From: Branchiostoma floridae | Taxonomy: Eukaryota > Chordata > Leptocardii > Amphioxiformes > Branchiostomatidae | Direction: 5' to 3' | DNA length: 64,000 nt | NCBI RefSeq assembly: GCF_000003815.2 | Contig: NC_049980.1 | Span: 1,763,960 to 1,827,959 of the forward strand | In this document: piece by piece, positions 19,804 through 61,539 of the stretch | Numbering within the stretch: position 1 is the stretch's first letter | How the letters are laid out: each line of letters starts with the position of its first letter | Made by a program: the position numbers and the translations under genes | The notes under the pieces: generated by a model | Databases searched by the model: none | The model's input: only the letters and a program-made list of their open reading frames with translations | Told to the model about the DNA's origin: nothing

Positions 19804-22800
19804 ATGGCGGGCCGCGGTACGCTAGAGACAGTGGAGTGGATCGACTACAGGGATTTTAGCCCGGAGGAGTTTCTCGAAGAAGCCAATGACTTTCCCCAGA
19901 TGGTGCAAATAAGCGAGGGTTTCTACGGAGACGGAGAAATGTGGAGTTTCTCCTCGGGACAGATCTTTAAGATCCACGGCGTCAAGACGCAGGAGAAAGT
20001 GGTGACCACGGTAGAGGGAGGGCGCGACACACCCGGAAGTAAAGTTGAGAAACTTCACATCCCCCTCAACTATGGGGGGTATTTTGAAGTTTTACCGTCA
20101 GAACAAGAAGGTACAGACGTTGTCTACAACAGTGTAAGAGAGGTGGCGAAGAACTTTCCACGCTTCGTTTGTGTGGATACGGACATGTCCGTCACAAGTG
20201 ATATGGGAGGGGTTCGGCTGCACCGCGGGGACCAGTTAGAACTGTTGGAAAACGCCAAGCGACCCACCAAGACTGGTCTGAGACCCTTTCTCAAGTGCCG
20301 CGTGAACGATGACAAGGAGTGCTTCCTGCCTCACGAATGCCGGGGAAGGTTTCTGGTGATTCCCGACGAGAATTCGTACACCATCTCAGAGATCATAAAA
20401 AGGTGGGCCCACTTGAATAAAATTTATTTATGATGTTTTTTTAACCACCAGGTGTACAAATCCTTTGGTAGTAGACTGTACATGTAGGTGCCACACATTC
20501 CATGTTAGGGCTATTCCGACTTCCGCGAATACTTCTTCCCTTGCTTCCACGTGAAACTAAGAAACACAATGGTAAAGACTCGTGGTTTATTGTATCTGAT
20601 ATCTGTGATGTGTATATGAAATGCTTGACTATATGGCTATCAAGCTGAGGCTTTTAGTGAGTCAGTGATGAGTCCATGCGTCTTTTGGACGCGTTATTCT
20701 AAAAACAAGAGAGGAAATGGAGGCCCATGAAATGTAAGACCCTCCCAAAGACGCCCTTACCCAGTGAGGAGCAGATCCTATGACAAGCATAAATTCTGAT
20801 TGACCAGGGATGCTACCAGATCACGCATGTAGCCAAGGTCGTAAACTGTAATTGTCATTCGTGTGACCTGTCTGACAGCACATTTGCCCCTCAGGAAGCC
20901 CCATTTTCTCTAAAAAAACTGTCTGAAACTCCACACCCTGGAAGGGGGATTGTTTGGGGATGCCCCGGACCCTCAACAATACTCGCGACTCTCAGTCCGA
21001 CTGGGAAACGTAGACACCTTATCAACATCAACAATGTAACATTAGATATTAACATTGATGCGTATCGCTAATACCCCTGTCACATTATCCACGATCTTCC
21101 GGCGTATCGATGGAAGATATTAAGATCGACAGAGTGTTGCGCGTATACGTATTTTTTTTTACCTGAAAACCGCTCCTGTCACATATAAGCCATACTCTGT
21201 ACCTTGTATAGTTGTTGTGCAATAAAGTTATTATTACAAGCGAGGCTTGGGCGATTACCGCGGAATCGTCGTCCGATCGATTTTCGCCTAATGTGAGGGG
21301 GGTATAAGGAAGAGGCTTTCAGTTAGGCATGTATGTTCAAACCTCCCTTCACAACTTATCTGTCAATACAAGTGATTGTATAAAAATCTTAGATCTGAGT
21401 ATGGAAACTATGATACATATGCCACACAGATTTTGTCCACTTTATGTTAAATGAGAATTAGTGTTCATTCGCCTGAAAAGGGCAGATACTTACCCAAGAC
21501 GAGAGAACATGCAAATATTGTATCAGGAAAGCAATGGAAGATGAACTACATTTTATCTGTTAATGTTCACAGTGAGAAGTGAGCTATTCCTAAAAATCTA
21601 CAAAGCAAACTAGGCTAAATCCTATTATAAGTTCCTTGTCATTCTCTCAAGGAAGGGAGTAATGTGTTCTTCTGTGTTTTTTTACTTTCTGGTCTAATTG
21701 ATGAGATATTTCACTACATTGAAATTAATGTAAAACTACATGAACCTATAAAAATGCATTTAGCCACGAGGCACTTTCTCGCTGACACGGGTAACAACAC
21801 AACTGAAGCCCAGCTAGCGCGCGGCTATCAAACATTGCCTGCTAGTCTTAAGAATGGTCTGGTCTTGTTTAGACACAGCGTCTATCGGCTGTAGCAGTTA
21901 GTGTCAGGCTACAGATTATTAATGAATGAAGGAAAGACCTTTATTGTATATTCATGCCTCGACGGACTAGGTACAGGTCACTGGTAACAGGCATAACAGA
22001 CATGTGCAGAGACAACAAGATGCAATATTATTTCTCCATGTTGATTTCCTTCATTATTTATAACTACTAGTATTTGAAGGTGCTAAGCTAACAGGATGGT
22101 TAACATCTTCTCGCTTCTTTGTACAGGTGTAGATATAGGAACTCTCACTCTCACTCATCCTCGCCGATATAGGAACAGATAATGTTTGATATACAGAAAC
22201 CCTGATCTAGGCGCATCAAAAATAGAAATTTATCCGTTGCATTAAGATGTTCAAAATATGGAAACCCTTTTCTGATTTATTCATAAAGCACAATTCGTTT
22301 CTTGTGGTACAATCTACAGTGTAATATGTTTAGGGAAACGTTCGGGTTATTGACTGACAAAATGAAGTACACTTCAGGAGCAAACTTACGTTGGGTATAC
22401 TGTAAATGCATTTAAGTTCGCGGGGATTTAATTTCGCGGTAGCGGGAAAAGGGACTTTCGCGGTGGATTTAAGTTCGCGGTAACACCATAGACTGCAGTC
22501 TAAAACCATAATAAAAAATGTTCGCGGTGGTTTTAAGTTTTCTGCATTTACAGTATTATCGTCTACTTAGGCCATGTTGATTTCCTTCATTGTCTACAAC
22601 TTGCCAGGTTCCCCCTCCCTCGGCGTGTGCAGTTCTACGGCGGGTACATCAACTACTGCTCCCCGGAGGTCATGCAGTCGCTGGGGTACTCGTTCGATGG
22701 CATCCTGCGCTTAGAGGGGACCACGCTGGAGAAGTACCTCGTCGCCACCACTCAGGGTCTCACCCAAAAGACCAACGAAAACAAGAAAGATCTCCTGGTT

Positions 22801-25800
22801 ATGCCTATCAAGGCGAAAGTGGGTCTTGAGGGCGTTCTTTTGCATCCATTTTCATCTTCCTAGTAGTCATGTCGACGTCTTCACCTATGTAACGCTAAAT
22901 TCACCTTTATCCGCGGGGTAACCTATATCCGATAGGGATATCAAGTCGACGGACGGTGCATGTAGTTTGAAACTGCGATGTGTTCAATTATTCCAGTTTG
23001 AAACATCGTCCATCAAATTGACATCCCTAAATGCTCTAAACGACGGATTTAGGTCCCCCCACAGAATTGACATCCATAAATGCTCTAGATTTAAACAACG
23101 GATTTAGGTTCCCCCTCAGATGAAGATAAATTAGCGTTAGAAGCAAATTTGTCGTTGTTTTTCAGATCAAGTTTTTAGTCGCCAAGGGACTGTTCGAACG
23201 AAGCTCCGAGTATGAAACAGTTTTGACAGCCTTCAGTCGTGACTTTGACGTAGACAGGATGTCGGAGCACCCGTACATGAGTTTTGAGTTCGCCCCCCTG
23301 ACGTACCCCGACGAGGAACCGCCGCCACCCCCAGCTCGGGGCCAGTGCGAGGAGCCGCCCGTGCCCGGAGCAGACGAGGCTCCGCCCAATGTGGACCGCT
23401 CCAGCAAGCCGGACAGCCTCGTGAGAGAGTTAACTACTCCGCGAGCATCAACATCTTCACAAGCTGAATCAGGTGAACAATAGTCAACCGTTGTAGTGTT
23501 TCAGAGGGTTTTTAAGATTGCTATATTTCATATTACCCCTTCCAGTTCACGTATTTTGTCTGTCATATGGCGCCTAATACCCCTCTCACATTATCCACGA
23601 TCTTCGGGCGTATCGATGGAAGATCGGCCATATTTAAGATCGACAGAGGGTTTTGCGTTTATTTTTAACCTGAAAACCGTCCCTGTCACATATAAGCCAT
23701 ACTTTGTACCCAGGACAATTGTGCATTGCGTAATAAAGTTATTATTATAAGCGAGGCTCGGGCGATTGCCGCAGAATCGTCGTCCGATCAATTTTCGCCA
23801 AATGTGACGGGGGTATAAGGAAAATTGTCAATCTGACATCTGAGTCATCAAATTAAAAAAGAATAGTGTAATTCACACGCAGATTAAGGTCTTGACGGTT
23901 CATGTTAGAGTGTTGCACTTCTTTGATTGATTGATTGATTGATATACTTATGCTTTTAATTTGTTTATTGTTTACTGTTTATCTGCGCATACATGTAATA
24001 CAAAAAAAATCATAAGATTGCAAAGGGTGAGAATAAAACATGTAGGAGGAACCAAAAATCCAAAAGGTTTATTGTGGGTTTCCTCTTACTTTAACTAAAC
24101 ATTTCTGGGCCTAGTGGCAGTTTCAAAGACTTGAATGGTACATGCTGCTTTCTATACTCCGTACTCAGCATCGGAGAAAGTGTACGAGAGATTACTTCCT
24201 GTACACTGAAATAGCCCTACCGCTATAGTGATTGCACAACGCTGTGTGGCCCAGGGCCACAGAAACGGAGATAGGCGTCGACAGATGCGCCATGTTTGAT
24301 TCGAGAGGGACTTCAATTTTTTAATGGTAATTTGATTATGTGAATTTCTAATGGTATACATCGTTTAATCATTAAACTTTCTACTCTACTCCAGAGAACT
24401 ACGATTATGACAGTAATGAGGAAGACTATGAGACCATATCGGACGATGACTATGATAGCGTGCCGGAGGGCATAACACCTCCCGTAAAAGGTTTGTAGAC
24501 ACTAGTTTTACCTTTAATTATTTCATGTGATTCTATAAAAGTGCATCTTAAATAATAATATAACGTTAGTATAGCTTCCAATAGGCTATAGAGTATAACA
24601 CCTAAAATCATGGCCTTGTTCGAATACTAGGCACTTATTAGAGTCCATTCCAAGACACCATGAGGGTTTTTAGGCGATATTTATAACTAGTCTGAATTAT
24701 TTTCAATCAAAGAATATCTGAGTCACAATGATTAAATTATTTTCAAAAACTTGACTAAGAAAATACTCATTTATTTGAATTTCTTTGAATATTTTAGAAA
24801 CATTTTGAAAGTAACTGTACAAAAATATCTTTACTTAGAATAATTGTGAAACCTCTCTGTGATTATTTCACATTTACAAATATTTACAAAAAATGGTAAA
24901 CCTGGCCAAATGGTAAAATTAGTTTATTGCCCCCATAAAAGTAAGCCCTATTGTTGTATCTGTATATTTTTAGATTTCACTGCTGGGCACTGGTGGATCC
25001 TTTGTGGTGGGCCTTTGTTGCATGGCACCCAACCATACTTTGCAAGGATGTGTGAATTGCTATATTCCCAGCCCACCGAACCATTTACAAAAAATAGTAG
25101 AAAATGGTAGAAAATGGTAAATAATGGTAGAATGCTGTTATCATTATTTAGAAACCATTAGAAGTATCCAATTCCACACCATGAATATTTCCAAAGTTTT
25201 ACAGGACCAGGGAAATATCTATAAAGTTGAAACAGTGTTAAAAATATTTCTGAAGTATCAAATGCCCTAGACATATAATTACAAAACTTTAAAATCAATT
25301 CTAAACAATGGCAACAAACATCCGCATGGTGTCTTGGAATGGACTCTACAATACCGTGAAAATAATCCAGGTACAGGATAAAAATATTAGATATCAATGT
25401 ACTGATCACTGTTCCTGAATGGATTTACACTCAAGTATTGGCTTATTCTGTTACTTAAAGCATGTGACTCCTACCACGTGCACAAAGAGCACAGATAAGC
25501 ACTGGAAAAATATGAAAACATTTGCATATGCAGTTGAACCAGTACCATCTTTGTTTCTCTCGAAGCACATGTTCTCTGAAGATACCTGAAGACTAAATAC
25601 TATTCTGTTCACTGTTTATCCATGTCTCTGTCCTCAATGAAAACCGCACTTTAGTTTGTCAAGTTGTTCATGTACAGGTACAGGACCTGTACCTAAACCT
25701 CTATAACTGATCACCGTACATTTACCAGGTGTAACGTTTAGGTACACATCCCTATGGCATCTGTTAATTTTATTTGTGGCAAATGTAAACAAACAGCTTT

Positions 25801-28800
25801 TAATGTACGCGCACAAAGTCGTTATAAGAACCACAAATGTTTGAGATACATGTGATTTGGGTTGGGCTATTCTTCCTCAGATCCAAATAACACCCGTGAT
25901 GTTTTTATTTCTACCAGGAGAAACCAGACCTGCAATACCACCAGAAGAGGGAGAATACGAATACATCGACGAAGACAGGTCAGCCATATTTTCATTTTCA
26001 ATCCTTTCTTCTGACGTACTTACGTACGTTGACCTCTGTGCTGTGTTTACGTTCTGAAGGCATAGCGGGTGAACTTTACCCCCCATTGTTCTCAGTCAGT
26101 TTTGGCGAGCGTTCCGGTGACTACCATGAAAGGAATCAGCTTGTGCCTTCAGGGTGTTCGCGGGAACCGAAACGAACCCCAAATGTCAGAAGAATTCGAG
26201 CTTGACATTTTGTTTTTGCCCGAGTTTGTGATTGTTTTTTATTTGTCATCAAATGAGGGCCGTATTTACAGAACACCCATAACGCAGCTCTTGTAAAGTG
26301 TTAGATCATTTGGAGAAGGTAGTTTATAGATTTATATACGCTCGTCGCGATCGTAATTCATGGAATGTGCGTTAAGTGTACTTTCCAAGTAGAGGTTGGT
26401 GGGAAAGACTTTGACCTCCTATCCGTTTGCACTGATAAAACAGTAATGCCGATAAGGAAGTAAATTCCTCAAGAGTAATGCCACTTGGTGGAACATGATA
26501 TGCATATTGATGTTGTCGTGTTTCCGTTTTGCCGTTTTCGGTTACATTTTTCGGCAGATTATGTTTAAACTGGTAGACAGAAATACGGGATAGGAAAACA
26601 AAATGTGGAAGAGACTGCGTCACAAACTAGAGTTCGGCGACTTCATGCTCCATGAAATATTCAGAGCTTTAGTAGATGCAAACGAATACAAAATTTACAT
26701 AATCGATGCATGGCTATGTTTACCTGACTTATCGCTTGACTTGACTTGACTTGATTTTATTTAGATCCACTTTTAGCTAACAACATTATGTTGCCAGCTA
26801 TTCTTCCAGTGGTCTATATAAAATACATCACTACACGCACAACATTTCACACATACATAACATAGTATGTACATTACAAGCTATACAGCTGAGAGAAAAT
26901 ACAAGTTTAATTAGTAACCATTCGTTAGAGGAAGCGCTTCTTTTCTGCATTGGTCCTGGGTTTTGACAGTTTGATGCAGTTTGTTGTTGTTGATCGTGTT
27001 TGGTACCGACTGTTGGTTGACTGGAATGTGAGTTGGGTGTAAAGTGGTTTTGGTAGTCCTGTGTGCACTATCCTGCAGAATGTGGCAAAACTTCTTTTTT
27101 GTATTCTTTCCTTTACTGGTGACCACCCCAAGATGTGTAACCTTGTTGCACTGTCCGTCTGTATCACAAATATGACATTCTTATCATTTCCCAATAAAGA
27201 GTTATAGCATAATAATTACCAAATTAGGTCCAGATCACAATTCGTATCTGGTTATGTTCCTCCTCTCATGGAACATACATGTGTTACATACATTGATGTC
27301 ATATTAAGAAAAAATGGAATCATGGATTTTTACATTATTAATGCTAACTCATCTTTGCTATGTTTACGTTATCTGCATGACCAAAATGATATGAATTGGT
27401 CCTTCTTTTCTTTATCCTCTTTATGTTTAGGAGTTTCTTTTGCGACTTCGTAGGTTTGTGGACACTCTCAGGCCGAAGGGCTACAAGTCTGTCCAGCAGT
27501 TATTGGGTTATCTTTTTCACAACCAGACACACGCACAAACGTTTCTTAAAACATACCATCCCTTTATCCTTGTAGTCCAGGATAAAGCTAAGGGCACAAC
27601 CCGCCGTACGTGCAATTTGTCCGTACGTTTTTTTGGCAGGCCACGTCCACCACGTATTTCTGAAAACGTGGGGACGCTCATTGGCTGTACAGGGCAGGTG
27701 CGTCGCCCGTACTGGCACGTACGGGGGCGAATGCGCAGCCCGATTGCCTGCACGTTAAGTTCTAGGGCGTGTCTGTGTGCTCCTAAATCCGTCGGATTCC
27801 CTACGAGTTCGTACGGAGGCGGTACGTACCACTTACGGATCCCAAAAGATTGCTTATTTGCACATACGGCGGGTTGTGGCCTTAGCTTAACACTGTTCGT
27901 TCTCTTCCGATTCAGGTGCACTTCGCCTGGCGGCGCTGCTGCGGCTGACTCAAGGCAGAAGGCACCCCAGGCCCAGGCCCAGCAAAACCCTTTGGCAACG
28001 GAACTCAAAAATCTGTTCTCCCAGCGTCCACCACCCACCAAGACAACAACTCCTATCCGCCAAGATCCACATGTCAGTAAAGGACCACCTCCCATACCAT
28101 CCGTGGCACAAGCAGCGCTTCCTCCTTTCGGTGGAGTGAAATTGCCAACATCACCAAAGCCTACTTCAAGTCCAACCAGCACAGGAAAAGTTGCACAAAG
28201 CCACAAATCCGCTTCCCCCAAGACCCCTATCCCTAAACCTCCTGTTGCGCCAAGACGAAAAACATCATCTTCCTCAGATATAAAATCGGTTGAAGGCTCG
28301 GCCAGTCCTAGCCAGCCGCACAAGCCTGACCCGGGCACAAAGCCATCAAAAGTGACGGGTCGGGTCTCACCACTGCGGGCAGTTAAACCTGTGGGAACTG
28401 AAGTTAAAGCTGAAGACAAGAAAGAAGAAGGCGAACACATTGGCGTAATCCACAGTGCACAGAGGAAAGCAGCAAGTGGGCAAAGAGAGGTAAGTGTTTT
28501 CCTTAGATATGCTAAGGCAAACGACACATTTGCGCAAAGGGACCCGGCCGAGCAGTTTTGGGGAACGAAAGATATAAAACAAAAACGCAAAACGGACCAA
28601 AATAAATCAACGACAAGCCTTGGGCATATTTATTGGCATAAACTTAACTTTTTCGTTTCCGCAAACAGCCCGTCAGCCCCCGGGTAGGAAATGTGACGTA
28701 GACCTAATAAGTAATTGATTATAAATTCCGCGTTGTAAAATGGTGTAAGAGATCTTTGTATGCTGGTCTTTGTTTTCAGTTGACGTTCTTACGGTGCATG

Positions 28801-30763
28801 ACCATGAGTTAAAAAAAAACATCCATTGCGAGTTCAAGAACATGTAGGTCTTAAACCCCAGGGTCTTTGTACTTTTTTTAGTCATGACGTCAATAAATTT
28901 TCTTTCCTTCCTTGTTGTTTGTGTAGACGTTCTCCAGTCTGAGTGATGTGCCGGCAAACCTCTCCCAACTGTCCATCAAGCAAGTCAGCAACTGTCTCCA
29001 GCTGCTCAACATGGCCGAGTATGTCCCAAGGTCAGGAAGTTTTCACTAGAGGGAGAAGATTCTAGTCTCCAAGCAGACCATACGGTGCCTCAGAGATAGT
29101 ATCAAAGCTGGTCAGGGAGTATAGTGCCCGTTTGGCTCCCTCTGGCCGGCTATACTCCTTGGCCAGCTTTGATACTTTCTCTATTATAAAGGCACCGTTG
29201 GGTCTGCTTGGAGACTAAGAAGATTCAACACAAAGTAGTGGTTCTATAGTCTCCAAGCAGACCCTACGGTTCCTTAGAAATAGTATCAAAGCTGGCCAAG
29301 GACTTAGTATAGCGGCACCGGTGCCCGTTTGACTCCCTTTGGCCGGCTATCTCCCTTTGGCCGGCCATACTCTCCAAGCAGACCATACGGTGCTTCAGAG
29401 ATATTATCAAAGCTGGTCAGGGAGTATAGTGCCCGTTTGGCTCCCTCTGGCCGGCTATACTCCTTGGCCAGCTTTGATACTTTCTCTATTATAAAGGCAC
29501 CGTTGGGTCTGCTTGGAGACTAAGAAGATTCAACACAAAGTAGTGGTTCTATAGTCTCCAAGCAGACCCTACGGTTCCTTAGATATAGTATCAAAGCTGG
29601 CCAAGGACTTAGTATAGCGGCACCGGTGCCCGTTTGACTCCCTTTGGCCGGCCATACTCCTTTGCCAGCTTTGATACTATCTCTTTAGGCACCGTTGGGT
29701 CTGTTTGGAGACTAGTGGTTCTACTGCATCTACATGACTGTCTCACCTCACTAGTCTCGTAACTACTCTAGAAGCCCTCCCAGAAGCCCTTTCGTATACA
29801 TTCTATTACGCAGTCATGCGGGCGCGACAAAACTCTGGGTAATATGTCAAAGGTAAAGTCCCCTGATATGTAAACAGTGTCCTCTCTACCATTGTTCATC
29901 TGCATATCATTGGCCAAAACGCAATGTCAGGGGCCTTCACCCTTGACATATTACCCAGAATTCCAGTCAACCTCGCGAGCGTCATCGAGGTCGCATTACA
30001 AAAATACTCATTCGTTCATTCATTCATTGCAGCTTCGGCCTTTGCACTATTTCTCCATTACATTAACCACTGAATAATTGATCCGCTAAATAATAGCTGA
30101 ATGCAAGACTTATTAGGAGTAATCACGGTAACTTCAAGTAAGTATGCACCCTTTTGCACATGTTGTCTCTTTGGATTGCTAGTACCAATCCAGTGGTAGC
30201 TGGGGCAACGATCGCAAGGAGAAAAACGTATAATTTAGCGTTGTTTTTCTCTGCAAACAACGCTAATTTCGCTAAATTGCGTTTTTCTCCTTGCGATCGT
30301 TGCCCCAGCTAATCCAGTGGCAAAGTGGTGGGTGTTCGACATGCAGTCTGTAGGTCGTGAGTTCGATCCCTGGCCGCTATTCCGGATTCTAAAGACTTTA
30401 AGAATGGTACATACTGCTTTCTCTGTTTAGCTTTCAGCATATGTTCTTTTGCATTCAGCATATGTTCTTTTGCGACCAACCTACGAAGTCGCAAAATAAC
30501 ACATGTGAACACACTGGTAGTCAGTCTGTGTGTTCACATATTTGATTCAGTGGATTGCATAAAACTGTGTGTCCAGGGTTTTGTCCGACACGTCATTTGA
30601 TTGACCCAAAGTCTTTGCCTGTAGATTCGAGAGGGACCAGGTCGACGGGAACTTGATGTGTGAGCTGGACCGAGAGATGCTGACAGAGATGGGCGTGTCA
30701 CGTGTCCACAGCATGAAGCTCAAGAAATTCATCAAGGGATGGCGGCCAAACGCAGATAACTGA
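19804..30763 (+). CDS. GAREM: Gene A: CABIT-SAM adaptor, GRB2-associated regulator of MAPK (GAREM)-like, eight coding exons
   Basis: Coding exons: 19804-20402, 22608-22818, 23166-23472, 24395-24490, 25918-25978, 27916-28489, 28927-29030, 30625-30763 (TGA). All junctions are GT-AG and the phases fit, giving 696 residues. An in-frame ATG at 19711 exists, but 19804 has the better context (AAGATGG). A CABIT domain spans about residues 17-315 (exons 1-3). Exons 4-5 form an acidic tyrosine-rich stretch (YDYD, YETI, YDSV, YEYI). Exon 6 is Pro/Lys-rich with a PxxPxR site (PPVAPRRK). Exons 7-8 encode a C-terminal SAM domain ending DGNL...KLKKFIKGWRP, like vertebrate GAREM. Known family members are bound and tyrosine-phosphorylated downstream of EGFR, recruit GRB2 and SHP2, and promote ERK signalling. 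That role is inferred here. Introns carry many MITEs. Confidence 0.88.
21072..21304 (+). mobile_element. PIF/Harbinger-like MITE, TACCCCTGTCAC ends (copy 2)
   Basis: Flanked by TAA on both sides (21069-21071 and 21305-21307), a 3-bp duplication of the PIF/Harbinger type. Left end TACCCCTGTCAC, right end GTGAGGGGGGTA. In intron 1 of gene A. Confidence 0.75.
21922..22340 (-). repeat. LINE 3' fragment, minus orientation
   Basis: On the minus strand this ends with ACAATAAAGGTC and a short ATTC-type tail, typical of CR1-like LINE 3' ends. It matches 38,645-39,125 (shared AGGCGCATCAAAAATAGAAA and ATTAAGATGTTCAAAATATGG). Only the 3' end is present. In intron 1 of gene A. Confidence 0.65.
22400..22553. 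mobile_element. CTGTAAATGCA / CGCGGTGG MITE (short copy)
   Basis: Perfect 11-base ends (CTGTAAATGCA, TGCATTTACAG) are bordered by TA at 22398-22399 and 22554-22555. The interior is GTTCGCGG-rich. It ends 54 bp before gene A exon 2. Confidence 0.8.
22892..23137. mobile_element. ACGCTAGTTCACC-family MITE in gene A intron 2
   Basis: Ends ACGCTAAATTCACCTTTATC and a diverged GATAAATTAGCGT, bordered by TA. It shares GGGGTAACCTATATCCG with copies at 45,293, 45,822 and 62,852. It lies 28 bp before exon 3 of gene A and occupies most of that intron. Confidence 0.75.
23578..23815 (+). mobile_element. PIF/Harbinger-like MITE, TACCCCTGTCAC family (copy 3)
   Basis: TAA flanks on both sides (23575-23577, 23816-23818). 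Left end TACCCCTCTCAC, right end GTGACGGGGGTA. Same interior as 21,072-21,304. In intron 3 of gene A. Confidence 0.75.
24641..25346. mobile_element. 706-bp TA-flanked element, GAGTCCATTCC family (copy 1)
   Basis: Inverted ends GAGTCCATTCCAAGACACC / GGTGTCTTGGAATGGACTC with TA at 24639-24640 and 25347-25348. It is nearly identical along its length to 36,247-36,951, and a third copy starts at 63,778. The interior has AATGGTA-type repeats and no transposase. In intron 4 of gene A. Confidence 0.85.
26720..27195 (-). repeat. LINE 3' fragment with CTTGA pentamer tail
   Basis: The minus-strand frame 26,925-27,194 looks like the extreme C-terminus of a LINE reverse transcriptase (LPKPLYTQLTF, then KLSKPRTNAEKKRFL), with further frames up to 27,200. 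It is followed on the minus strand by a TCAAG repeat tail at about 26,735-26,755. 5' truncated; in intron 5 of gene A. Confidence 0.6.
27586..27887. mobile_element. MITE abutting gene A exon 6 (AAGCTAAGGGCACAACCCGC ends)
   Basis: The left end AAGCTAAGGGCACAACCCGC is inverted at the right as GCGGGTTGTGGCCTTAGCTT. The interior is unusually rich in CGTACG-type palindromes. The right end is 28 bp from the acceptor of exon 6 (27,916), so branch point and polypyrimidine tract lie at or just outside its edge. The long open frame before exon 6 is a by-product of this element and not coding. Confidence 0.75.
29063..29715. repeat. Tandemly duplicated foldback array in gene A intron 7
   Basis: Units begin TCTCCAAGCAGACC and end with its reverse complement GGTCTGCTTGGAGA. 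Inside, AGTATCAAAGCTGGCCAAGG pairs with CCTTGGCCAGCTTTGATACT. The block starting near 29,069 recurs near 29,374, a period of about 305 bp with few differences. The AGCAGAGG / CCTCTGC motif echoes at 17,763 and 35,362. No coding sequence. Confidence 0.8.
30197..30310. mobile_element. Near-perfect 114-bp foldback with 9-bp flank duplication
   Basis: The arms TAGCTGGGGCAACGATCGCA and TGCGATCGTTGCCCCAGCT(A) are exact inverted repeats. The same ATCCAGTGG stands outside each end (left at 30188-30196, right from 30312). A 9-bp duplication points to a Mutator- or Merlin-like mobiliser. In intron 7 of gene A. Confidence 0.8.
30313..30480 (+). repeat. tRNA-derived SINE fragment, second family
   Basis: A tRNA-like head (GGCAAAGTGGTGGGTGTTCG, then B-box-like GAGTTCGATCCCTGG) is followed by a tail with ACTTTAAGAATGGTACATAC and CAGCATATG. 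Related tail sequence occurs at 24,105-24,180. Interrupted by the foldback at 30,197. Confidence 0.55.
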
Positions 30764-31854: not shown

Positions 31855-34800
31855 TTACGGTCTCCATCCTTGTGTGAACTTCAGGATTTTCAGCGCGTCT
31901 AACTTGCGCAAGTTCATGTCCTGTGTCATAATGGTTTCGTCCACGTCGCTCAACAGGGCGCCGTCTATCCGCTCCCGCTCAAACGCCGCGATGACGTCAT
32001 CTCCGAGGTTAAGGTGACGTAGGCACGCCGTCACTTCTGAGACAGACAGTGTTGACAGGTCGTCAGGCGGGACCCATGTTGGTGAATCTGCCGACTGTCC
32101 ATGTTTGCTTTTCTCTGACGGATCCGTCAGTGCCGGTATCTCAGAATACATCTCCTCTACGTTATCGTAGTCAGCGTGTGTATTCGTAACTTCTTCTCCA
32201 ACAGGAAACTGACACGTATCGCTTCCCTCTGTACCTTGTATGTAGCCGCCACTAGGAGGTACCATCTGCACGGCTGGGCTCTTGGGGCTATCATAGGCTT
32301 GGCTATCTTCGTGGCATTTCAGTTCTTCAAGTGACTGCACGGGAATCTTGTGAGGTGGCGTCTGATATTCACTATCGCTTTTGATGTCTCCTTTTTCTTC
32401 AGGGCCACCGGATGAGGGCGGAGGGTCTTCATACTCTTCTTCATCTTGTTCAGGTTCCTTCGGCAGTGCAAGGCGTATGTTCAGTGGAGTTTTGTAAGAA
32501 ACGAGTGTACTTGTTTTGTCTGTTGATTCCATCTGCTTGACCAAGTCTTTGACGGACGCGCGCTTGTCAATGACTGGTTGGTCTCCCTCCGACGCAAGTG
32601 AGTCGTACAGGCTATTTTCAAACGTGACAAATGATGTGGGACCTTTAACGGTCGACTCGGTGATTGGCTTAAGTGTGGTGTAATTTCCGCCCGTTAAATC
32701 GGTGTAGTCGCCACTCGTGCCTTGGTCTGATGTCACTGTAGGTGCTTTGGGTCTAGGCGGTACTGGGGGCGGGGTCTTCTTGGACTCTTGTGCCTTTTTC
32801 AGCTCGCCTAAAAGTCCTACCGGCACCGCCGCTGGAGGTATCTTAGCCCTGCGTGGTTTAATTTCAGGCTTAGTGACTGTATCTGACGTCTTATCCTTCT
32901 CTGTAGGTGGTTCTACGGGGGAGTAGTACTCAACAACATTGCTCTGTTCCATAGGAGGCGCGGAAGGCACCACTGCCTTCTGCAAGTCCGGGTCCTGATA
33001 TTCGGGGGTTTCTTCGTATATAGGGTTGGTTGAGGCGATATCTCCTACATTTGCGTATGTAGCGAGATCTGAAGGTTTGAACTGCCTGGTTCTGTCCTGG
33101 TATATAGAAGAGTATGGTTTACCCATCACGAGAATGAACGAATCCATGTTCTTGCTGTCCACGAGAACGCTCGTGCGGACGTTGGACTGAAACAGGCGCA
33201 GAATTTCCTTGTTTTCCGAGAGTTCTAGGTCGGCTGGACTGAACTGGATGTCCGTGTTGATGGAAAACTCGACCTGTGAGATCTGCCCGTCGTCTTGAAC
33301 AGACGTCCCGACGATGACTTCATCCCTATAGGTGTGGAACAGCCGGACGTAACCCGTGAACTCGTCGTCGTCCCCAGGGCAGTCCCCGTGCACGAGTTTG
33401 ACGTCCTGCGGCAGTTTGAAGTTGTCGATGACGTTCTCCACCGTGTAGGTTGTACCGCTCTCGAACTCAAGCGGTTTCAGGGTGAACCGTGCTTTCAGAT
33501 CGCCCGGCAAGGTTACCAGGTCACCATCTTGGTTGCTACACGTGAAGATCATTTTTGGCCTTTGCACTTCAGGCTCTTTGTTCTCAGTGTGAGAAGTTCT
33601 TCTCCCCTTGCCTTTGAACTGTGCCCTCAGCTTGTGGCCGAGCCCTTTCTTGTGTACTTCAGGAATCTCTTGAACATGTTGCACTGGTGCTGGTTGTTCT
33701 CTTGGCTGTGCAGATACAATCATTATGACGTCACCTTTTTTACACAGGGGTTGTCGTGGACCCGTGGTCGCCATTCCCATCTCCGGAGACGCGACCCCGG
33801 CGGGAGGGAGCTCACTGTCCAGAATGTCCTCCTCTACAAGAAGCCTTACTACCGGCATCTTGGACTGCAAGTCCTCGTTGATGACTTCCTCAAGGCTTTC
33901 AAAGACCTTGACGTTGCTTTGATTTTGCAGGAGTTCGAAGCGACCAGGGTAGGCGAGCGGTATGTTCAGCTCGGGGCCCACCACAATACCACCCTCCTTA
34001 CTCAAACTCTGTGCCATGACCTTTTTACTGGTGTACGTGAAATGGAGGAGCAGTATCTGAAATAGAAGAAAACTAGACTTCAGATAAACCAACTTTCAAA
34101 TAATATACAGTAAAACCTGTCCAAGACGACCACCCGGGGGACCGGGCAAAAGCGGTCGATTTGGTCAGCTGGTCGATTAGAAGAGTGTCTACTCACAACA
34201 TGCCCGTTGCATAGTTTAAATGGTTTCCGTTGCCGTGGTGTTTAATGGCAAATAGCAAGCACACGCACGTGCATCCGACGCCATCTTTATTTTGAACATA
34301 ATATCGTAATGGTACTCAAAATCCGACGCAAACTGGCCGAATTCGGCACAAAATCGCGCTAGTTATCATTGAAAATCGATGACACCTCAAAATTTGAAAA
34401 TGACGCGGTCGTTATGGACAGGGATTTTGTCCCAGTTTTGGACGGTCGCGTTGGCCAGGTGGTCGTTGTGAAGAGGTCACTTAATGATTACGTCAATGGG
34501 CAAAATTTTCGGGACCGAGAAAAAGCGGTCGTAATGGCCAGGTGTCGTTAAGAAGAGATGGTCGCTTGGGCAGGTTTGACTGTATTACTTCGGCCCTCTA
34601 GATAAGAATACACCGTAGTTTTGTTTAACAACGTTGTAGGTAGGATTTATTCAACACATACATATAGCATGGCATCCGGCACACGTATACTGATCGCCAT
34701 TATACCCCGGGCCCCTTTCCACTAGGATGGCGCTCTCGCCGCGCGCTCTCTGCAACCTAAAATTTGACAGATCGCTCAACGAATTGTATAGAAAAGAAAC

Positions 34801-40172: not shown

Positions 40173-40199
40173 ATCAATTCAATTCAATTCAATTCAATT
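40173..40199. repeat. Pentanucleotide (TTCAA)n tract touching a stop codon
   Basis: Five TTCAA-type repeats abut the TAA of the 779-residue minus-strand ORF. It may be the tail remnant of a retroelement. Confidence 0.7.
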
Positions 40200-43160: not shown

Positions 43161-43164
43161 ATAT

Positions 43165-45290: not shown

Positions 45291-45292
45291 TA

Positions 45293-46412: not shown

Positions 46413-47468
46413 TTACACAAAAATCAAGGGCCGAGAATCCTTCCTTATGCCGGTAATGTCTATGTACGAAACGTTACTGGCAGAACGCTCTAAACCACCT
46501 GCTGGCTTCTGCTGGTCCGGAGCTTGTCCCGGGGACTGCTGCCGACGGTCGCCCTTCCAGTTGTCCCTGGGAACTTCTTCTCCCACGGTCGCGACGGTTC
46601 CGAAATGGACGCGCTTCTGTGAGTTGGACCTCGGGGGCCGGGGCGGCGGAGGACCTCGCCTGCTGGGAGTTTTCTTGACGGGGAGGGCTGTGATGTCCTT
46701 CGGTACGTGTTTCCCTTCTCCCGACACCAAAGCGTACACGTCGTCGCGACTCTTCTCGCTAGACTTTTGGACTCCTGCGTCTGTTTTCTGTGTGGACGTC
46801 AGGATAGCGCCGGTCAACCTCTCCAGTTCTAGGGCGTCAGCTTGCTCGTGGAGGATGATTTCTTCCGGTCCCACCGGATCGTACTTATCCGGGCTGAGAG
46901 AAATGCTGCTAGTAGGGAAAGTCGTGTCTTCCTCCGAGTTTCTTACTACGTCCAACGAGGCGGACGACATGTTCTCTCCAGTGTCTGATACAGTATCTTG
47001 TCCGACTGCATCATCTTTGGCATCCACGTCTCTCTGCTCTTCATCAGAGATTTGTTCATCTTTGTTGCCATCTTCTGTGACCGTTTCGTTGTCTGTCGAA
47101 GGTTTAGAAGTTGATGGGGAGTCCTTGGACACATTGGAAGGCGGTAACAAATCTTGGTAGTCACTCGTTTCCGCACTGGTAGGCAGTAGACAGGTGTAGG
47201 CGGGATGGGAGGCCTCAAAACTGGCGGTATACTCCAGCGGAGCACAGGAGTCGCTCGAGCTCTCCCCCACACGGTGGATCAATACAGTCTCCACTTTCTG
47301 CACCCGTTTCCGACCCTGTTTGCTGGTGTATATCTGTTCCAGAAGGTTCGGGACATCTCGAGAGATGTTCAGACCCAGTGACGCTACCTTCTTCATCGGC
47401 GGGGCCCGGTATCCGACTGTAGCCGGTTGGCGCACGTTCGACGTTAACGGTTTCCGCCAGGTAGCCAT
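46413..47468 (-). CDS. Intronless ORF of 351 residues, unrecognised disordered protein with PP1-type and SH3-type motifs
   Basis: I take the ATG at 47468 (CCAAGATGG context) over the in-frame ATG five codons earlier. Stop at 46413-46415. No domain recognised. The N-terminal third is basic with VPNLLEQ (about 39-45); the middle is acidic Ser/Asp/Glu-rich. Near the C-terminus come PPPPRPPR (about 273-280), a proline-rich SH3-type stretch, and then KRVHF (about 285-289), which fits the RVxF docking motif of protein phosphatase 1. It ends IRKDSRPLIFV. It shares strand, intronless form, PNLL motif and hydrophobic C-terminus with the 779-residue ORF, so the two may be distant relatives. Function unknown. 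It could also be a chance ORF, but length and start context favour a gene. Confidence 0.6.
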   Translation of the reverse strand: MATWRKPLTSNVRQPATVGYRAPPMKKVASLGLNISRDVPNLLEQIYTSKQGRKRVQKVETVLIHRVGESSSDSCAPLEYTASFEASHPAYTCLLPTSAETSDYQDLLPPSNVSKDSPSTSKPSTDNETVTEDGNKDEQISDEEQRDVDAKDDAVGQDTVSDTGENMSSASLDVVRNSEEDTTFPTSSISLSPDKYDPVGPEEIILHEQADALELERLTGAILTSTQKTDAGVQKSSEKSRDDVYALVSGEGKHVPKDITALPVKKTPSRRGPPPPRPPRSNSQKRVHFGTVATVGEEVPRDNWKGDRRQQSPGQAPDQQKPAGGLERSASNVSYIDITGIRKDSRPLIFV

Positions 47469-49336: not shown

Positions 49337-51181
49337 TCAGTTTGAGGGTGATTTCTGCCGGTCCGGTATGGGTGGTGGTGGGCCCGCCGGTCGGGACGTC
49401 ATTGTCTTAACGATGTTCCGCTGTCCTCCGCTAGAGGTCTTCAGTGACACCCACCCACTATCGTCCTGTGTTCTACCACCTGGACTCGTGTTGTTCTTGA
49501 GGTCTAGGTTTTGTAGACCTTCAGTGGTAGCCAGTGGGATGGGAGGGGCGGGTCGGCGGGGTTTGCTGGCTGTCTGGGGTAGTGGGGACGGGATGACAGT
49601 CACATCACTTCGTGCGGAAGTAGGCAACTCAACAGCATCTTCCCCGAACTTTTCCCACGCGGCGTCCGGATTTAAGAGACTAGTTTTCTTCGTAGGGGAT
49701 TTCTCTCCAACAAAGCTCAACGAGACCTCTTCCACCGCCCTTTCGTCCTGAGCTTCTTTACTCCCAGTCTCTTGCCCTGTGACTGTTTGTAAGGAGTCGA
49801 TAGCCTCCATCGCTTCTTTGTAGACATTTACGGCGTCGTCTGCGGCAGCGCTGTGTGCATCCGCTTTGGTGCGGCCAGCTTTCCTTTTCATCAGAGATGG
49901 CAACTTCAGTTTTTGGGAGAAGCTGGATTTCCTTGAGTTGAGGAAACTTGCCTGGGTAGTCGCAAGCTGGCTGGTTTGATGTCCATGCAGAACGTCTTCG
50001 TTAGATGGAGTGCTGGTCTGGTCAGAGGAGTACATGTCAGGTTTGAACGTGCTGTACGCAGCCGGCGACACGTTTCCATCCGTGTTCACTGTTTCTTCCA
50101 TCGGGGCGGATTTCCCTGTCGGAGTGGTGCTCGCCGCGACGCTCACAATCTTATCCGCTTCCGAGTTTCTCGGCAGGACGTTGTTCTGCGTGTGTAACCT
50201 GATCAAAAGTTCCGCGTATTCACGGGAAGATGTGTCTGCGAGACAAAACCGCAAGAGGGCGCTTGTAGACAGTTCCATTGCCGCCCTGACCTTGTCCCCT
50301 TTAATCAAAGACGCCAGAACTACGCTTTCTTTGTAAGCATCGAGGAGTCGAAAGAATGGCGTCGACTGGAAGTCACCTCTGGGTATTTCCCCGCTAAGCA
50401 ACTTCACGTCAATCGGTAGCTTCGTCTTTTCGACGATATCTTTAACTTGAAGTTGAGAATGTTCGCTTGATGTTGGTCGGACGGATGTAAAAGTCGACCT
50501 GTGTTTCGCTGGTAAATACAGCACCTCTCCCAACTGATTGCTACACACTAGATACTCGTAAACCTCCTCTTTTCCGTCAATCTTCGATCGTTCCTTTTTC
50601 CTCAGCAGGGTCCTCTTCCATTCCTTCGCGCTGCCGAAACTAGCGAGGCGGCCCATGCCCTTGTGCCCGGCCAGGCGGACTGCCTTCCCCTCGGGCAGGA
50701 GAATGTCTCCCCTCCGACACGCGTGTTTCCTATCACTGTACATCCCGAGGTTGTGAGCGACAGATTTCGGTACCCTCTCCTTGTCGCTCAAGACGACGTC
50801 CTCCTCCACCAAAACTTTGAAGACTCGCGAAGGGTCGTCTTCCACCGCTTTCAAGATCTCTTGCACGCTGTCGAAGACCCTACCCTCGCCGTACATGACT
50901 TCGAAAGTCCCGGGATAACTGTAACCAATGTTAAACATGGGACCCACCAGTCTCCCGCCCTGACGGTCCATACACTGTGCCAGAACCTTATGACTGGAGT
51001 AGGAGGAGTGCAGTAAGAGCACATCGCCTTGTTGGAGCGGGATGTCTGGGTCCGGCTGTCTCACCATAGCTAACAGCGGCAGGGCATGGTTATCGAGAAC
51101 CTGGGATATGTTGTAGTCTGTTTCCCAGCGCCACTGTAAGCCTGACACCAGGCTGCCACTTTGTAGATCCGAACTGGCCAT
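49337..51181 (-). CDS. Gene C: single-exon CABIT-domain adaptor without SAM, 614 residues
   Basis: Complete open frame from ATG 51181 to TGA 49337-49339. The CABIT domain spans about 27-330, with the family landmarks DVLLLHSSYSSHKVLAQ, GPMFNIGYSYPGTF, VLVEEDV and YLVCSNQLGEVLYLPAK. The basic loop at about 176-205 separates the two halves, as in its neighbours. The tail is disordered and carries RRPAPPIPLA (about 542-551) and PPPPIPDRQ near the end, both SH3-type ligands. No SAM follows before the stop. Closest in order and motif to genes B and D. An adaptor between kinases and GRB2-like SH3 proteins is inferred from the GAREM/THEMIS family. It has no intron where gene B has one. Confidence 0.85.
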   Translation of the reverse strand: MASSDLQSGSLVSGLQWRWETDYNISQVLDNHALPLLAMVRQPDPDIPLQQGDVLLLHSSYSSHKVLAQCMDRQGGRLVGPMFNIGYSYPGTFEVMYGEGRVFDSVQEILKAVEDDPSRVFKVLVEEDVVLSDKERVPKSVAHNLGMYSDRKHACRRGDILLPEGKAVRLAGHKGMGRLASFGSAKEWKRTLLRKKERSKIDGKEEVYEYLVCSNQLGEVLYLPAKHRSTFTSVRPTSSEHSQLQVKDIVEKTKLPIDVKLLSGEIPRGDFQSTPFFRLLDAYKESVVLASLIKGDKVRAAMELSTSALLRFCLADTSSREYAELLIRLHTQNNVLPRNSEADKIVSVAASTTPTGKSAPMEETVNTDGNVSPAAYSTFKPDMYSSDQTSTPSNEDVLHGHQTSQLATTQASFLNSRKSSFSQKLKLPSLMKRKAGRTKADAHSAAADDAVNVYKEAMEAIDSLQTVTGQETGSKEAQDERAVEEVSLSFVGEKSPTKKTSLLNPDAAWEKFGEDAVELPTSARSDVTVIPSPLPQTASKPRRPAPPIPLATTEGLQNLDLKNNTSPGGRTQDDSGWVSLKTSSGGQRNIVKTMTSRPAGPPPPIPDRQKSPSN

Positions 51182-54159: not shown

Positions 54160-55320
54160 TCAGTTTGGTGGCTCTGTTTCTTCTGGGATAGACTTCTCCC
54201 CCTTTCTCCTCAGAGATCTGTTCCTCCATTTCCCGATCAGGTTGATGCTGTCCATGGACGGAAACGACGACCCGCCGAGGTTAGGCCGAAAACTGCCGAG
54301 CCTTTTCCGTGTCACGCTCCCGTCGTTAGGGGTGGCCGTGGCTCGCTTCAAGAAGTCTCTGTTCTTCGGGTCGTCCGGATCGGCGGGCGCGAACTTCACC
54401 CCACAATCCACGCCAAACTCTACGGAAGAGAAACCCCCGTCTTCTTCTAGAATAGACGCCACGACAAGCTTCTTCTCGTACGACGTCAGCAGTTTGACGA
54501 GTCCCGTGAAGTGTTCGTCCTCCATGAACGCCTCCCCGTCGACGTACAGCACGTCCGCCGGCAAGTCTATGTCAGCGTCATCCACGATATCCTTCAGGGT
54601 GAACGTGGGGCCGCTCGTGTTGCGTAGAGCTACGGTCGAGAATCTGCCACTACAATAAGACGGGATACACATAATTTCACCGTCTTGGTTCATACAGATC
54701 ACGTACGCCGGCAGCGGTTTACCTTTCTTCTTACTTTTCTTGGATCCTTTCTTCTGCTGACCGCCTGCGTCGCCGTTCAGTGGGTTGTCTTCTCCTTGTG
54801 GTTCGCCATTTGTGGGGTTGAGAATCCCCCTCATGGAAAGTAGATCCCCCCTTCTGACGAGAGTTTTTGGGAACTTCCCCTTGAGTCCGGACTCTCCAAG
54901 CTCGCTGATCATCATCTGTTGTACAGAGTCTGGCAGGCGCTGTTTCTTCCATTTCATGTCTTCTTCCACCGTGAAGGTGCCAGAGAATGGCTGCGAGTCG
55001 ACCACTTCCTGCACCGTTTGGAACGACTGCGGCGCCAGCAGCCGGAACGTTCCCGTGTACGACGCCGGGATACTGACCAGCGGACCGATAGTCTTCCCAG
55101 TCTCCCGCTCCAAGCTCTGCGCAAGAACCTTCTCTTCCGAGAAGGAGGAATTCACCAGGAGGACGAGGTCTTTGCTAAGCTGAGAACGACGGTCGGATTG
55201 AGTGACCTTGACCAAAGTGGGGAGGCTGCATCTCTCAAGAATTTCCTCAGGAGTGAGGGAGTCTTCCAGCCACTTCAAGTCCTCCACTTGTTTCTTGATA
55301 CATAACGTCACGTTGCCCAT
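54160..55320 (-). CDS. Gene D: single-exon CABIT-domain protein without SAM, 386 residues
   Basis: The start is taken at ATG 55320 (AAGATGGG, MGNVTLC). The open frame continues 25 codons upstream, but TTTTTGGTTGCACAG before it looks like a splice acceptor, so a 5' UTR exon is likely. Stop at 54160-54162. The CABIT domain covers about 20-320: LVLLVNSSFSEEKVLAQ, GPLVSIPASYTGTF, FTVEED, YVICMNQDGEIMCIPSYC and VKLLTSYEKKLVVASIL. A lysine cluster (KKGSKKSKKKGK, about 190-201) fills the loop between the halves. After the CABIT only about 65 basic residues follow, with no proline-rich ligand and no SAM, so this is the shortest member. Its N-terminal MGN resembles gene E, but residue 6 is Leu, so N-myristoylation is doubtful. 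Confidence 0.85.
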   Translation of the reverse strand: MGNVTLCIKKQVEDLKWLEDSLTPEEILERCSLPTLVKVTQSDRRSQLSKDLVLLVNSSFSEEKVLAQSLERETGKTIGPLVSIPASYTGTFRLLAPQSFQTVQEVVDSQPFSGTFTVEEDMKWKKQRLPDSVQQMMISELGESGLKGKFPKTLVRRGDLLSMRGILNPTNGEPQGEDNPLNGDAGGQQKKGSKKSKKKGKPLPAYVICMNQDGEIMCIPSYCSGRFSTVALRNTSGPTFTLKDIVDDADIDLPADVLYVDGEAFMEDEHFTGLVKLLTSYEKKLVVASILEEDGGFSSVEFGVDCGVKFAPADPDDPKNRDFLKRATATPNDGSVTRKRLGSFRPNLGGSSFPSMDSINLIGKWRNRSLRRKGEKSIPEETEPPN

Positions 55321-57440: not shown

Positions 57441-57444
57441 AGTA

Positions 57445-59560: not shown

Positions 59561-59769
59561 ACGTCGGACAGGTTTGACACCACGATGACCTCAGGATTTT
59601 GTCGGTGGCCTCGTCTCGGTCAAAACAACTGTAGCGTTCTAGACCTAGGGCTCCTGCCTGACATTTCTTGCCTAACAGAACATAGTTACAGGGCTGTAGA
59701 CTAGGACTAAATCTGTCTTCTGTGTTGACGACAAACTTGGCGTCGTGAGAGAGCTAGAGTTGCGGTAAC

Positions 59770-61539
59770 ATGGGGAACAACCAGGCCGCGAGGATTCGGC
59801 AGCGGGCCGAGAAGTTGGAATGGACGGACGAGATTCTCTCTCCTGGCGAAGTACTGAACGACTACGACCTGCCCGTGTTCGTAACAGTCGCCAGGGAGGA
59901 CCCTCAAGCAGACCTGGCTAAAGACGATATCTATCTGTTGCGGTCGTCTTATTCAGAGCGTGACGTGTTCGCCAGAAAAGTCCACAGGACGAGCGGTCGT
60001 CTGTATGGTCCCCTCTTGACGATTCCCCTCAAACACCCGGCAAAGTTTGTCATTTTTAAGAAAGTGTTTTACAACGGCGTGAGTGAGTTACTGCGGGCGA
60101 ACCCTTTCCCGGAGAGCTTCAGAGTAGAAGAGAATGTGACGTGGAGAGAGTCGGGGAAATCTCAGGAAGCTTTCGAGTTGTTGGGACTACTGAGTATGAA
60201 AATGTCCCAGAACCAGAGTAAAGATGGCGGCCATGTTTATGCCAAGGACATGAGTAAAATGAAGCCGAAGGTCATCAACATGTCTCCCGTGGTGGGCGAC
60301 TGTCTTACAGTCATAGACAAGACGGAACCAATCCAAGACTCTGAGGAAGTAGTCTTAGATATGAGCCAAGGTGGGGGTAAGAAGAAGACGTCGACGTTGA
60401 AAAGAATTAAAAGTTCATTTAAGGGCAAAAAGGAATCGAGGAAAACTAAGACAGTCGCTCAGCCCATGGGCTACTTGGTTTGTGCTAACCAGACTGGAGG
60501 TTTGGTATGCCTACACACGGACTGTACGGGCAGGTTCTCGGCCTACCTTCCAGAACAATACACCATGGAGGAACTACTGGAAAACTTCAAGCTACCAGGA
60601 GACGTCGAGGTGGTGGGAGGGAAGCTTCCAGACGATCACCCAAACTTCGGAGGGCGTTTGAGACTCTTGAGTTTTTGTACAGAGACTTTTCTTGTTGTTA
60701 ACGGCCTGCCAAAGCAGGGGGAGGTTACAGGAGCTGGCGTCCAAGCCGCGGTGGTGACGGAACTGTCTATAGATAGTGATGTACGGTTCACACCTGCAAG
60801 AAAATCGTCGCCACAAAACGTAGAACTGCTGAAGCTACTGCAGGGGCACCTTCAGCGCGTTAGGCCGTGCTCGGAAGGGTGCGTGGCGGCGGTCAGTGCC
60901 GGGGCGGCGACGGACGCGATGAGGGCCGAGTGGGCGGAATCCCAGGCCCGTGCAAGAGCAGCAGCTCTCTCAGCTGCACGGAGGACGACGCCTGCCATGA
61001 CGAGACAGGCCACTCAGCCTCCACCCGGCAAGCAACCCTCGTGGTGGCGCCGACTCTACAACTCCAGTCGGCGGAGATCTTCCCAGTTGACCGAGACGCC
61101 AACGGTGACCCCTCCCGGCACAAGGACCACCGGAAACGTACAGAGAACAGCAGGCTACGGGCCAAGACCACTGGACATTATAGAAGAAGCCTCGGACACA
61201 GAGAACTCGGACACAGAGAACTCAGACACAGACAATTCCAGTCTAGGTCTCGAACCCGAAGAGCAAGATAGGGTTATGAACGCTAAGAAAGGCGGCTTGA
61301 TTCCTAACGGAGGATTGGTCTCAAAAGGTGAGGTTCTAACGACAACTACTGTAAGTTCTGTACCGCTTGATAACATGCACATCAGAAATTCAGCAAGAGA
61401 CGATATTCCAAAGAAAGACGAGTCTTTCACGTTTTTAAAAACAAGGGAACAGATACAAGAACAGTTACCGAAAGAGGAAGATTCCGACGACTCGGACGAA
61501 TCTGTGAAGTTCTCTCAGGCGTGTTACGTTTATAAGTAG
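59770..61539 (+). CDS. Gene E: single-exon CABIT-domain protein without SAM, 589 residues, candidate N-myristoyl protein
   Basis: ATG at 59770 in good context (AACATGG); stop TAG 61537-61539. The CABIT domain covers about 20-345: DIYLLRSSYSERDVFARK, GPLLTIPLKHPAKF, FRVEENV, YLVCANQTGGLVCLHTDC and LRLLSFCTETFLVV. A very basic loop lies at about 203-226 (KKKTSTLKRIKSSFKGKK). The N-terminus MGNNQAA fits the myristoylation pattern with a small residue at position 6. A nearby basic segment could help membrane binding. After the CABIT come an Ala/Arg-rich helix-like stretch (about 380-405), a WWRR patch, and an in-frame repeat SDTENSDTENSDTDNS (about 475-490). No SAM and no clear PxxPxR. N-terminal similarity makes gene D its nearest neighbour in type. 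Confidence 0.85.
   Translation: MGNNQAARIRQRAEKLEWTDEILSPGEVLNDYDLPVFVTVAREDPQADLAKDDIYLLRSSYSERDVFARKVHRTSGRLYGPLLTIPLKHPAKFVIFKKVFYNGVSELLRANPFPESFRVEENVTWRESGKSQEAFELLGLLSMKMSQNQSKDGGHVYAKDMSKMKPKVINMSPVVGDCLTVIDKTEPIQDSEEVVLDMSQGGGKKKTSTLKRIKSSFKGKKESRKTKTVAQPMGYLVCANQTGGLVCLHTDCTGRFSAYLPEQYTMEELLENFKLPGDVEVVGGKLPDDHPNFGGRLRLLSFCTETFLVVNGLPKQGEVTGAGVQAAVVTELSIDSDVRFTPARKSSPQNVELLKLLQGHLQRVRPCSEGCVAAVSAGAATDAMRAEWAESQARARAAALSAARRTTPAMTRQATQPPPGKQPSWWRRLYNSSRRRSSQLTETPTVTPPGTRTTGNVQRTAGYGPRPLDIIEEASDTENSDTENSDTDNSSLGLEPEEQDRVMNAKKGGLIPNGGLVSKGEVLTTTTVSSVPLDNMHIRNSARDDIPKKDESFTFLKTREQIQEQLPKEEDSDDSDESVKFSQACYVYK

Follow-up and report, generated by a model that had tools for sequence, protein, structure and literature searches.

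The question raised by this locus is whether the neighbouring CABIT-domain genes in a short stretch of the lancelet genome are copies of one adaptor gene or members of an older and more mixed group. The stretch (hereafter the window) comprises 64,000 nucleotides of Branchiostoma floridae, positions 1763960-1827959 of contig NC_049980.1; coordinates below are window positions unless the contig is named. A reading made from the letters of the window (hereafter the sequence-only reading) had described a local cluster of five CABIT genes of the GAREM/THEMIS type and had interpreted it as a lineage-specific tandem expansion of tyrosine-kinase adaptors, perhaps with divided roles. In this study the genes in the window are called A to E; those past the end of the window are called F, G and H, and a gene far off on the same contig is called I. 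We conclude, with a probability of about 0.7, that the genes form an old mixed array. It consists of a counterpart of vertebrate GAREM (F), gene A, the single genes G and H, and a nested group of B, C, D and E, and in it A and B would be scaffolds and C to E modulators or competitors.

An excerpt of a previous paper (PMC4082722) states that mammals have five CABIT genes and that the family reaches back to cnidarians. According to the same excerpt, the Themis proteins of mammals contain two CABIT domains and a proline-rich region, and GAREMs contain one CABIT domain, a proline-rich region and a SAM domain. GAREM binds Grb2 via its proline-rich region, and GAREM1 has a Shp-type site, LPYEEL, as described in a section of PMC8086153. 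In THEMIS2, the partner of a YEEI site is Lyn and that of PPPRPPK is Grb2, according to a passage of PMC2903609. In Themis, deletion of either CABIT core abolished Grb2 binding, and removal of the first core had worse effects than absence of the entire protein; dominant-negative phenotypes are also mentioned (PMC3931654, in part).

Results

The five genes were located as matches of open reading frames (ORFs) to the Pfam CABIT profile (PF12736, curated cut-off 24 bits). The matching ORFs were 19711-20430 on the plus strand for A (2e-27), 31858-34095 (3.2e-21), 49340-51208 (2.7e-20) and 54163-55413 (3.8e-21) on the minus strand for B, C and D, and 59758-61536 on the plus strand for E (1.4e-13). 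The gene models of A to E are predictions from sequence. The full scores were 112.8 bits for A and 86.1 bits for B, both after splicing, and 73.3, 76.1 and 51.3 bits for C, D and E, so that all five lie above the cut-off, including C, D and E, for which the lack of a profile match would have refuted the sequence-only reading. The five genes are separate, with Pfam E-values from 1e-13 to 3e-32, and they span 19804..61539, from the start of A at 19804 to the end of the stop codon of E at 61539, as the sequence-only reading had it. Five other long frames of the window were without CABIT in the same scan, and tblastn of the five CABIT genes against the whole window found no sixth CABIT locus.

Each protein of A to E has one CABIT stretch; none has the two consecutive CABIT domains that are the criterion for THEMIS. 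A cysteine in the core motif is invariant in the five-row alignment (C165 of A). The ordered landmarks that had been described as common to all five are shared in part: VEED and the CxNQ block are present in B to E, but A has the diverged forms VDTD and KCRVNDDKECFLP, respectively. B, C, D and E found one another by tblastn in the window with 25-30% identity (E 6e-17 to 1e-33). With exon 1 of A as the query, the same search of the window gave no other copy at E<=1; the whole of A matched the CABIT of B (6e-4) and that of E (6e-6).

The genome family search covered the genome from which the window was taken (513,431,437 bases in 431 contigs). Only the best candidates were scored, and the census is therefore a lower bound. 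At least nine CABIT matches were found, all on the contig of the window: A to H lie within about 66 kb, and I lies 12.6 Mb off. The window thus cuts the cluster short, since five of the eight neighbouring CABIT genes are inside it. The cluster of five described by the sequence-only reading is real in all its members but incomplete, as F, G and H follow just past the window end. The CABIT family search gave no match in 14 control genomes. A CABIT piece of B gave 47 pattern matches in prokaryote genomes and 2 in viral contigs, but none was confirmed as a relative. Judged by sequence, the genes belong to a known family, that of the CABIT-domain (Themis) proteins.

Pairwise identity of the CABIT domains among the nine genes was about 22-34% (blastp), and the cluster and its expansion are therefore old. 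We give next to no weight to an assembly artefact in which haplotype copies were placed side by side. Lancelet genomes are highly heterozygous, and a section of PMC6526094 gives 4% for B. belcheri; the copies, however, are far less alike than this and lie on both strands.

The relationships were analyzed with a main tree of 15 rows, which contained the nine CABIT domains and six human CABIT domains (GAREM1, GAREM2, two of THEMIS and two of THEMIS2). The human reference sequences were not taken from database records. B, C, D and E formed one clade with support of 96/99, which excluded the other five genes as well as the human GAREM and THEMIS domains. Variant trees were made with three aligner modes, two trimming levels and three row sets; 14 of 18 were returned, including one whose search had not finished, and the B-E clade was present in all 14. 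With thinner sampling the clade had 80/94 in nine rows and was unresolved in 11 rows, where holding it together gave a P value of 0.45 in the approximately unbiased test (p-AU). F formed a clade with GAREM1 and GAREM2 (99/98). The phmmer scores agree with this grouping: 130 bits for B-C, 131 for B-D and 118 for D-E; with GAREM1, B scored 62 bits and F 203. These facts indicate that, as far as the trees go, B, C, D and E are a nested local, lineage-specific expansion in the cluster. C, D and E group together with B, and not in unrelated families.

It is worth considering whether all five genes of the window, as adaptors of the GAREM/THEMIS type with divided roles, might have arisen by one simple, lineage-specific tandem expansion. 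Five neighbouring CABIT genes, four of them in one clade, would be expected from such an expansion, and a clade of A to E was not formally rejected (p-AU 0.128). On the other hand, A was outside B-E in all 14 returned trees, the A-E clade appeared in none of them, a single clade of all nine genes was rejected (p-AU 0.004), and F, the GAREM counterpart, stands in the same cluster. A clade of B with GAREM was rejected as well (p-AU 1.2e-5, with the same human references), and B, which had been considered as the GAREM orthologue, was dropped from that role once F was found. We therefore regard a single five-gene expansion as unlikely. The expansion claimed by the sequence-only reading holds for B to E and is not supported for A.

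Gene A has eight exons on the plus strand (19804-30763) and encodes 696 amino acids; all exon borders are GT-AG with fitting phases. Exon 1 (19804..20402, with the GT donor after 20402) opens with the start codon and covers the greater part of the CABIT domain, exon 2 (22608..22818) its end, so that the spliced protein covers CABIT positions 1-243 of 255, and exon 3 (23166..23472) the CABIT end and the start of a proline-rich tail. Splicing raised the CABIT score from 96.7 bits for exon 1 alone to 112.8 bits (2.5e-32). Acidic tyrosine motifs follow in exon 4 (24395..24490; YETI and YDSV) and exon 5 (25918..25978; YEYI), and a proline-rich region with PPVAPRR in exon 6 (27916..28489). A SAM domain is divided between exon 7 (28927..29030) and exon 8 (30625..30763), which ends with the stop codon. 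In the spliced protein it matches Pfam SAM_1 at 1.4e-6, above the Pfam cut-off, and its best PDB match is 2dkz (2.9e-7). Intron 7 contains two head-to-tail units of 305 bases, 97% alike (29066-29664).

Gene B has two exons on the minus strand (37398-37213 and 34056-31855), encodes 795 amino acids and ends in a SAM domain. Exon 1 (37213..37398), with the start codon and the first part of CABIT, was placed by a weak tblastn match with D (E 0.45), the codon score and a GT donor in phase. When it was added, the CABIT score rose from 76.4 to 86.1 bits (3.4e-24 spliced) and the start of the domain was completed. Exon 2 (31855..34056) carries the rest of CABIT, the motif PPPVPPRPK, six YxxP and two YxN motifs, the SAM domain and the stop codon, as seen from the Pfam match, the match to 2dkz and the motif counts. 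The SAM domain of B matches the solved SAM domain 2dkz at 1.6e-14.

Tail motifs were counted downstream of CABIT and compared with shuffled sequences; since several motifs were counted per gene, the single p values are soft. In A, Y[DE]x[IVL] occurred three times against 0.16 expected, and none of 1000 shuffles reached three; PxxPx[RK] occurred three times against 0.91 expected (p 0.053). In B, the six YxxP compare with 1.84 expected (p 0.007). The tail motifs thus differ between the genes beyond shuffles, with Y[DE]x[IVL] in A and YxxP in B. The whole adaptor tail, that is SH3-type prolines, phosphotyrosine-type motifs and SAM, is present among A to E only in A and B.

A profile of the SAM domains of A and B found 2dkz as the best PDB entry (4e-20), followed by Polyhomeotic (3e-5). 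This entry, deposited as 'hypothetical protein LOC64762', we take to be GAREM1. The layout and the SAM type of A and B are those of GAREM1 and GAREM2 (FAM59A/B), and F fits them too. C, D and E differ from GAREM in that no SAM was found in them and that D and E are without an SH3-type motif. A further difference lies in arrangement: the GAREM and THEMIS genes of vertebrates are dispersed, whereas in this genome the genes are clustered.

A profile of the CABIT domains of A to E matched the THEMIS chains 9uou, 9i3p and 9iaz at 1e-8 to 5e-8, and the next matches were GRB2 chains at 0.014. Searched singly against PDB, B, C, D, E and F gave no THEMIS match; A gave one, at 3e-4 when scored over its full sequence but without an individual stretch that passed. 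Among the nine genes A also gave the best phmmer score with the first CABIT of THEMIS (20.5 bits; next I with 11.1). In the main tree A joined the first CABIT domains of THEMIS and THEMIS2 with 73/90, which is not significant, and placement of A with all four THEMIS domains gave p-AU 0.227. The acidic YxxI/V-type sites of A resemble the YEEI site reported for THEMIS2 in the passage of PMC2903609. THEMIS and THEMIS2 belong to the same domain family as A to E but, in the excerpt of PMC4082722, have two CABITs and no SAM, whereas A to E have one CABIT each, with SAM in A and B. By sequence, A may thus join a weakly THEMIS-leaning CABIT to a GAREM-type SAM.

Gab/Dok-type docking adaptors presumably work alike, with a disordered tail that bears proline motifs for Grb2 and a number of phosphotyrosine sites. 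Pfam found no PH or PTB domain in A or B, which have CABIT and SAM instead, and neither gene is a member of that group.

C is a single-exon gene on the minus strand (49337..51181; 614 amino acids) with CABIT and proline motifs, and AATAAA lies about 240 bases past its stop codon. D has a single coding exon on the minus strand (54160..55320; 386 amino acids), which encodes a protein that starts with MGN and consists of CABIT and a short basic tail. By eye, there is an AG acceptor just upstream of its start, which suggests an intron in the 5' untranslated region (UTR). E is a single exon on the plus strand (59770..61539; 589 amino acids) with CABIT and a tail; its N-terminus, MGNNQAAR, fits the N-myristoylation pattern at Gly2 (PS00008), and E is the only one of the nine genes that does so. 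In the motif count the tail of C had no phosphotyrosine-type motif, and the tails of D and E had neither SH3-type nor phosphotyrosine-type motifs. When the window and 40 kb beyond it were searched by tblastn with SAM queries, only A, B, F and H were found besides chance matches. On these predictions the tail parts are wholly or partly gone in the three genes: C has kept prolines only, and D and E none of the parts.

Such genes might be copies in decay, which became tailless and are turning into pseudogenes; the lack of SAM and of most tail motifs, together with the single coding exons, would be consistent with this. We consider it very unlikely, however. The frames of C, D and E are open over 386-614 codons, CABIT is matched over about 200-240 of the 255 profile positions with the core cysteine kept, and the start contexts look good by eye. 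Although divergence amounts to about one change per site in each of the three, no stop has arisen.

Coding introns number 7, 1, 3 and 2 in the models of A, B, H and I, and there are none in C, D, E, F and G. The genes of the latter set could also have arisen by reverse transcription and insertion close to the parent gene. But F, the GAREM counterpart, is itself intronless and cannot simply be a late copy, and D may have an intron in its 5' UTR. Retrocopies, moreover, usually land far from their source. An origin by reverse transcription therefore seems improbable.

F lies 6.9 kb past the window end on the minus strand (contig 1837208-1834896) and has no coding intron; its CABIT matches at 1.5e-37. 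Its SAM domain matches 2dkz at 5.5e-19, and its tail contains four PxxPx[RK] motifs against 0.80 expected (p 0.006). The site IPYDFL of F is comparable with LPYEEL of GAREM1 as given in the section of PMC8086153. Judged by its CABIT, proline motifs, SAM and place in the tree, F is the counterpart of vertebrate GAREM. G (contig 1841114-1839807, minus strand, no coding intron) has CABIT and proline motifs, and no SAM was found in it. H (contig 1849483-1844020, minus strand, four exons) has CABIT and a SAM domain seen by tblastn with that of F (4.5e-7). The lone gene I (contig 14483302-14479158, minus strand, three exons) also matches CABIT, and by eye its conserved core cysteine is replaced (LEVVRKKDG).

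Other features of the surroundings were as follows. Upstream of A, minus-strand exons at 8429-14239 encode a BSD domain (PF03909; 11304-11468, 5e-9); the gene looks like BSDC1. Human BSDC1 and THEMIS2 share the location 1p35, a hint at a possible old linkage. The single run of 100 N in the window (11909-12008) lies among the exons of this BSD gene and in no CABIT gene. About 12 kb before the window there is a plus-strand frame of 864 amino acids with leucine-rich repeats and a TIR domain (4.5e-21), of the Toll-like receptor type, and downstream of H there is an MFS transporter. Between B and C lie two long single-exon minus-strand frames, 40198-42537 (779 amino acids) and 46413-47468 (about 350 amino acids), and a single-exon plus-strand frame of 661 amino acids at 124-2109 repeats a SLxxIPxNxVxxKL-like motif at its end; none of the three had a Pfam match at E<=1. 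These three frames were tried as tails of CABIT genes and rejected, for none of them matched any of the nine proteins at an E-value below 0.18. A stretch of about 710 bases occurs at 24638-25348 and at 36244-36953, with repeated parts 97-98% identical and pieces at 63776-63953; the pair has the look of a mobile element that was recently duplicated within the cluster.

Discussion

How might such an array work? By analogy with the vertebrate proteins, from which most of this scheme is drawn, CABIT would dock to receptor or kinase complexes once these are activated, the proline motifs would hold Grb2 via its SH3 domains, the tail tyrosines, when phosphorylated, would attract SH2 proteins (Grb2, Crk-type or Src-family), and SAM would cluster the scaffold. 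A and B have all these parts and should therefore be working scaffolds with different SH2 partners. The partners of A would be Src-family-like (YETI, YDSV, YEYI) and those of B Crk/Grb2-like (six YxxP, two YxN). The Src-, Crk- and Grb2-type labels of the motifs follow general usage, except that those for YEEI and PPPRPPK come from the passage of PMC2903609. C, which has proline motifs only, could be a partial scaffold. D and E, as bare docking domains, could compete with the others at the CABIT docking site or tune them, and E may be held at the membrane by N-myristoylation. The effects of first-core loss in Themis and the dominant-negative phenotypes, as mentioned in part of PMC3931654, imply that partial CABIT proteins can interfere. 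It is thus likely, on these analogies, that A and B are Grb2/Src-pathway scaffolds and that C to E are modulators. The description of all five genes as tyrosine-kinase adaptors suits A and B, with their SH3-type prolines, phosphotyrosine-type motifs and SAM, but fits C, D and E poorly.

Several observations weigh against the proposed array and its roles. The human references of the trees are not database records, and the clade of F with GAREM, which appeared in 10 of the 12 returned trees including GAREM, was missing from the other two. The Pfam SAM models gave no match at E<=0.1 in F or in the last exon of H, and SAM_1 in B reached only 0.13, below the cut-off. In B, neither the two YxN (p 0.063) nor the single PxxPxR, in TPPPVPPRPK (p 0.38), went beyond shuffles, and the same holds for the one PxxPxR (p 0.25) and the one class I motif (p 0.22) in the tail of C. 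The start of D, MGN, fails the N-myristoylation pattern. The predicted structure of D, of moderate confidence (predicted local distance difference test score, pLDDT, 66; predicted template modelling score, pTM, 0.49), matched no solved CABIT. As for A, its grouping with the first CABIT of THEMIS appeared in just 6 of 14 variant trees, and by phmmer A scores I (32 bits), F (29), GAREM1 (27) and B (25) above THEMIS (about 21). The tie of A to THEMIS is therefore weak.

Thymocytes depend on THEMIS for their selection, and how the gene arose before there were T cells is not clear. We tentatively propose, as a possibility that we hold to be rather less probable than not, that THEMIS and GAREM, which in vertebrates are now dispersed and differ widely in function, go back to adjacent genes of an ancient CABIT array kept almost whole here. 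A would then be a living intermediate, with a THEMIS-type first CABIT and a GAREM-type SAM, from before the doubling of CABIT, the loss of SAM and the recruitment to T cells in vertebrates.

In the openly licensed literature we found no paper combining CABIT or Themis with amphioxus, and by title none of the matches listed dealt with lancelet CABIT genes. Broader queries on CABIT/Themis evolution in invertebrates and on FAM59/MAPK regulators gave nothing on lancelet CABIT genes among the matches listed, and no publication on the solved THEMIS structures was among those listed either. As far as this literature was searched, the location of eight of the nine CABIT matches of one genome in one cluster appears to be new. 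The same may be said of the mixed content of this cluster, which has a GAREM counterpart as well as a gene with SAM that leans towards THEMIS, and of a branch stripped to bare CABIT.

The presence of a GAREM counterpart and a THEMIS-leaning SAM gene in one cluster would make the origin of THEMIS testable, both in trees and through the binding partners of A. B to E form a natural series from a whole adaptor to a bare CABIT and could show what CABIT does alone. Finally, at least nine CABIT genes, compared with the five that the excerpt of PMC4082722 gives for mammals, would matter for studies of receptor tyrosine kinase signalling in such animals.

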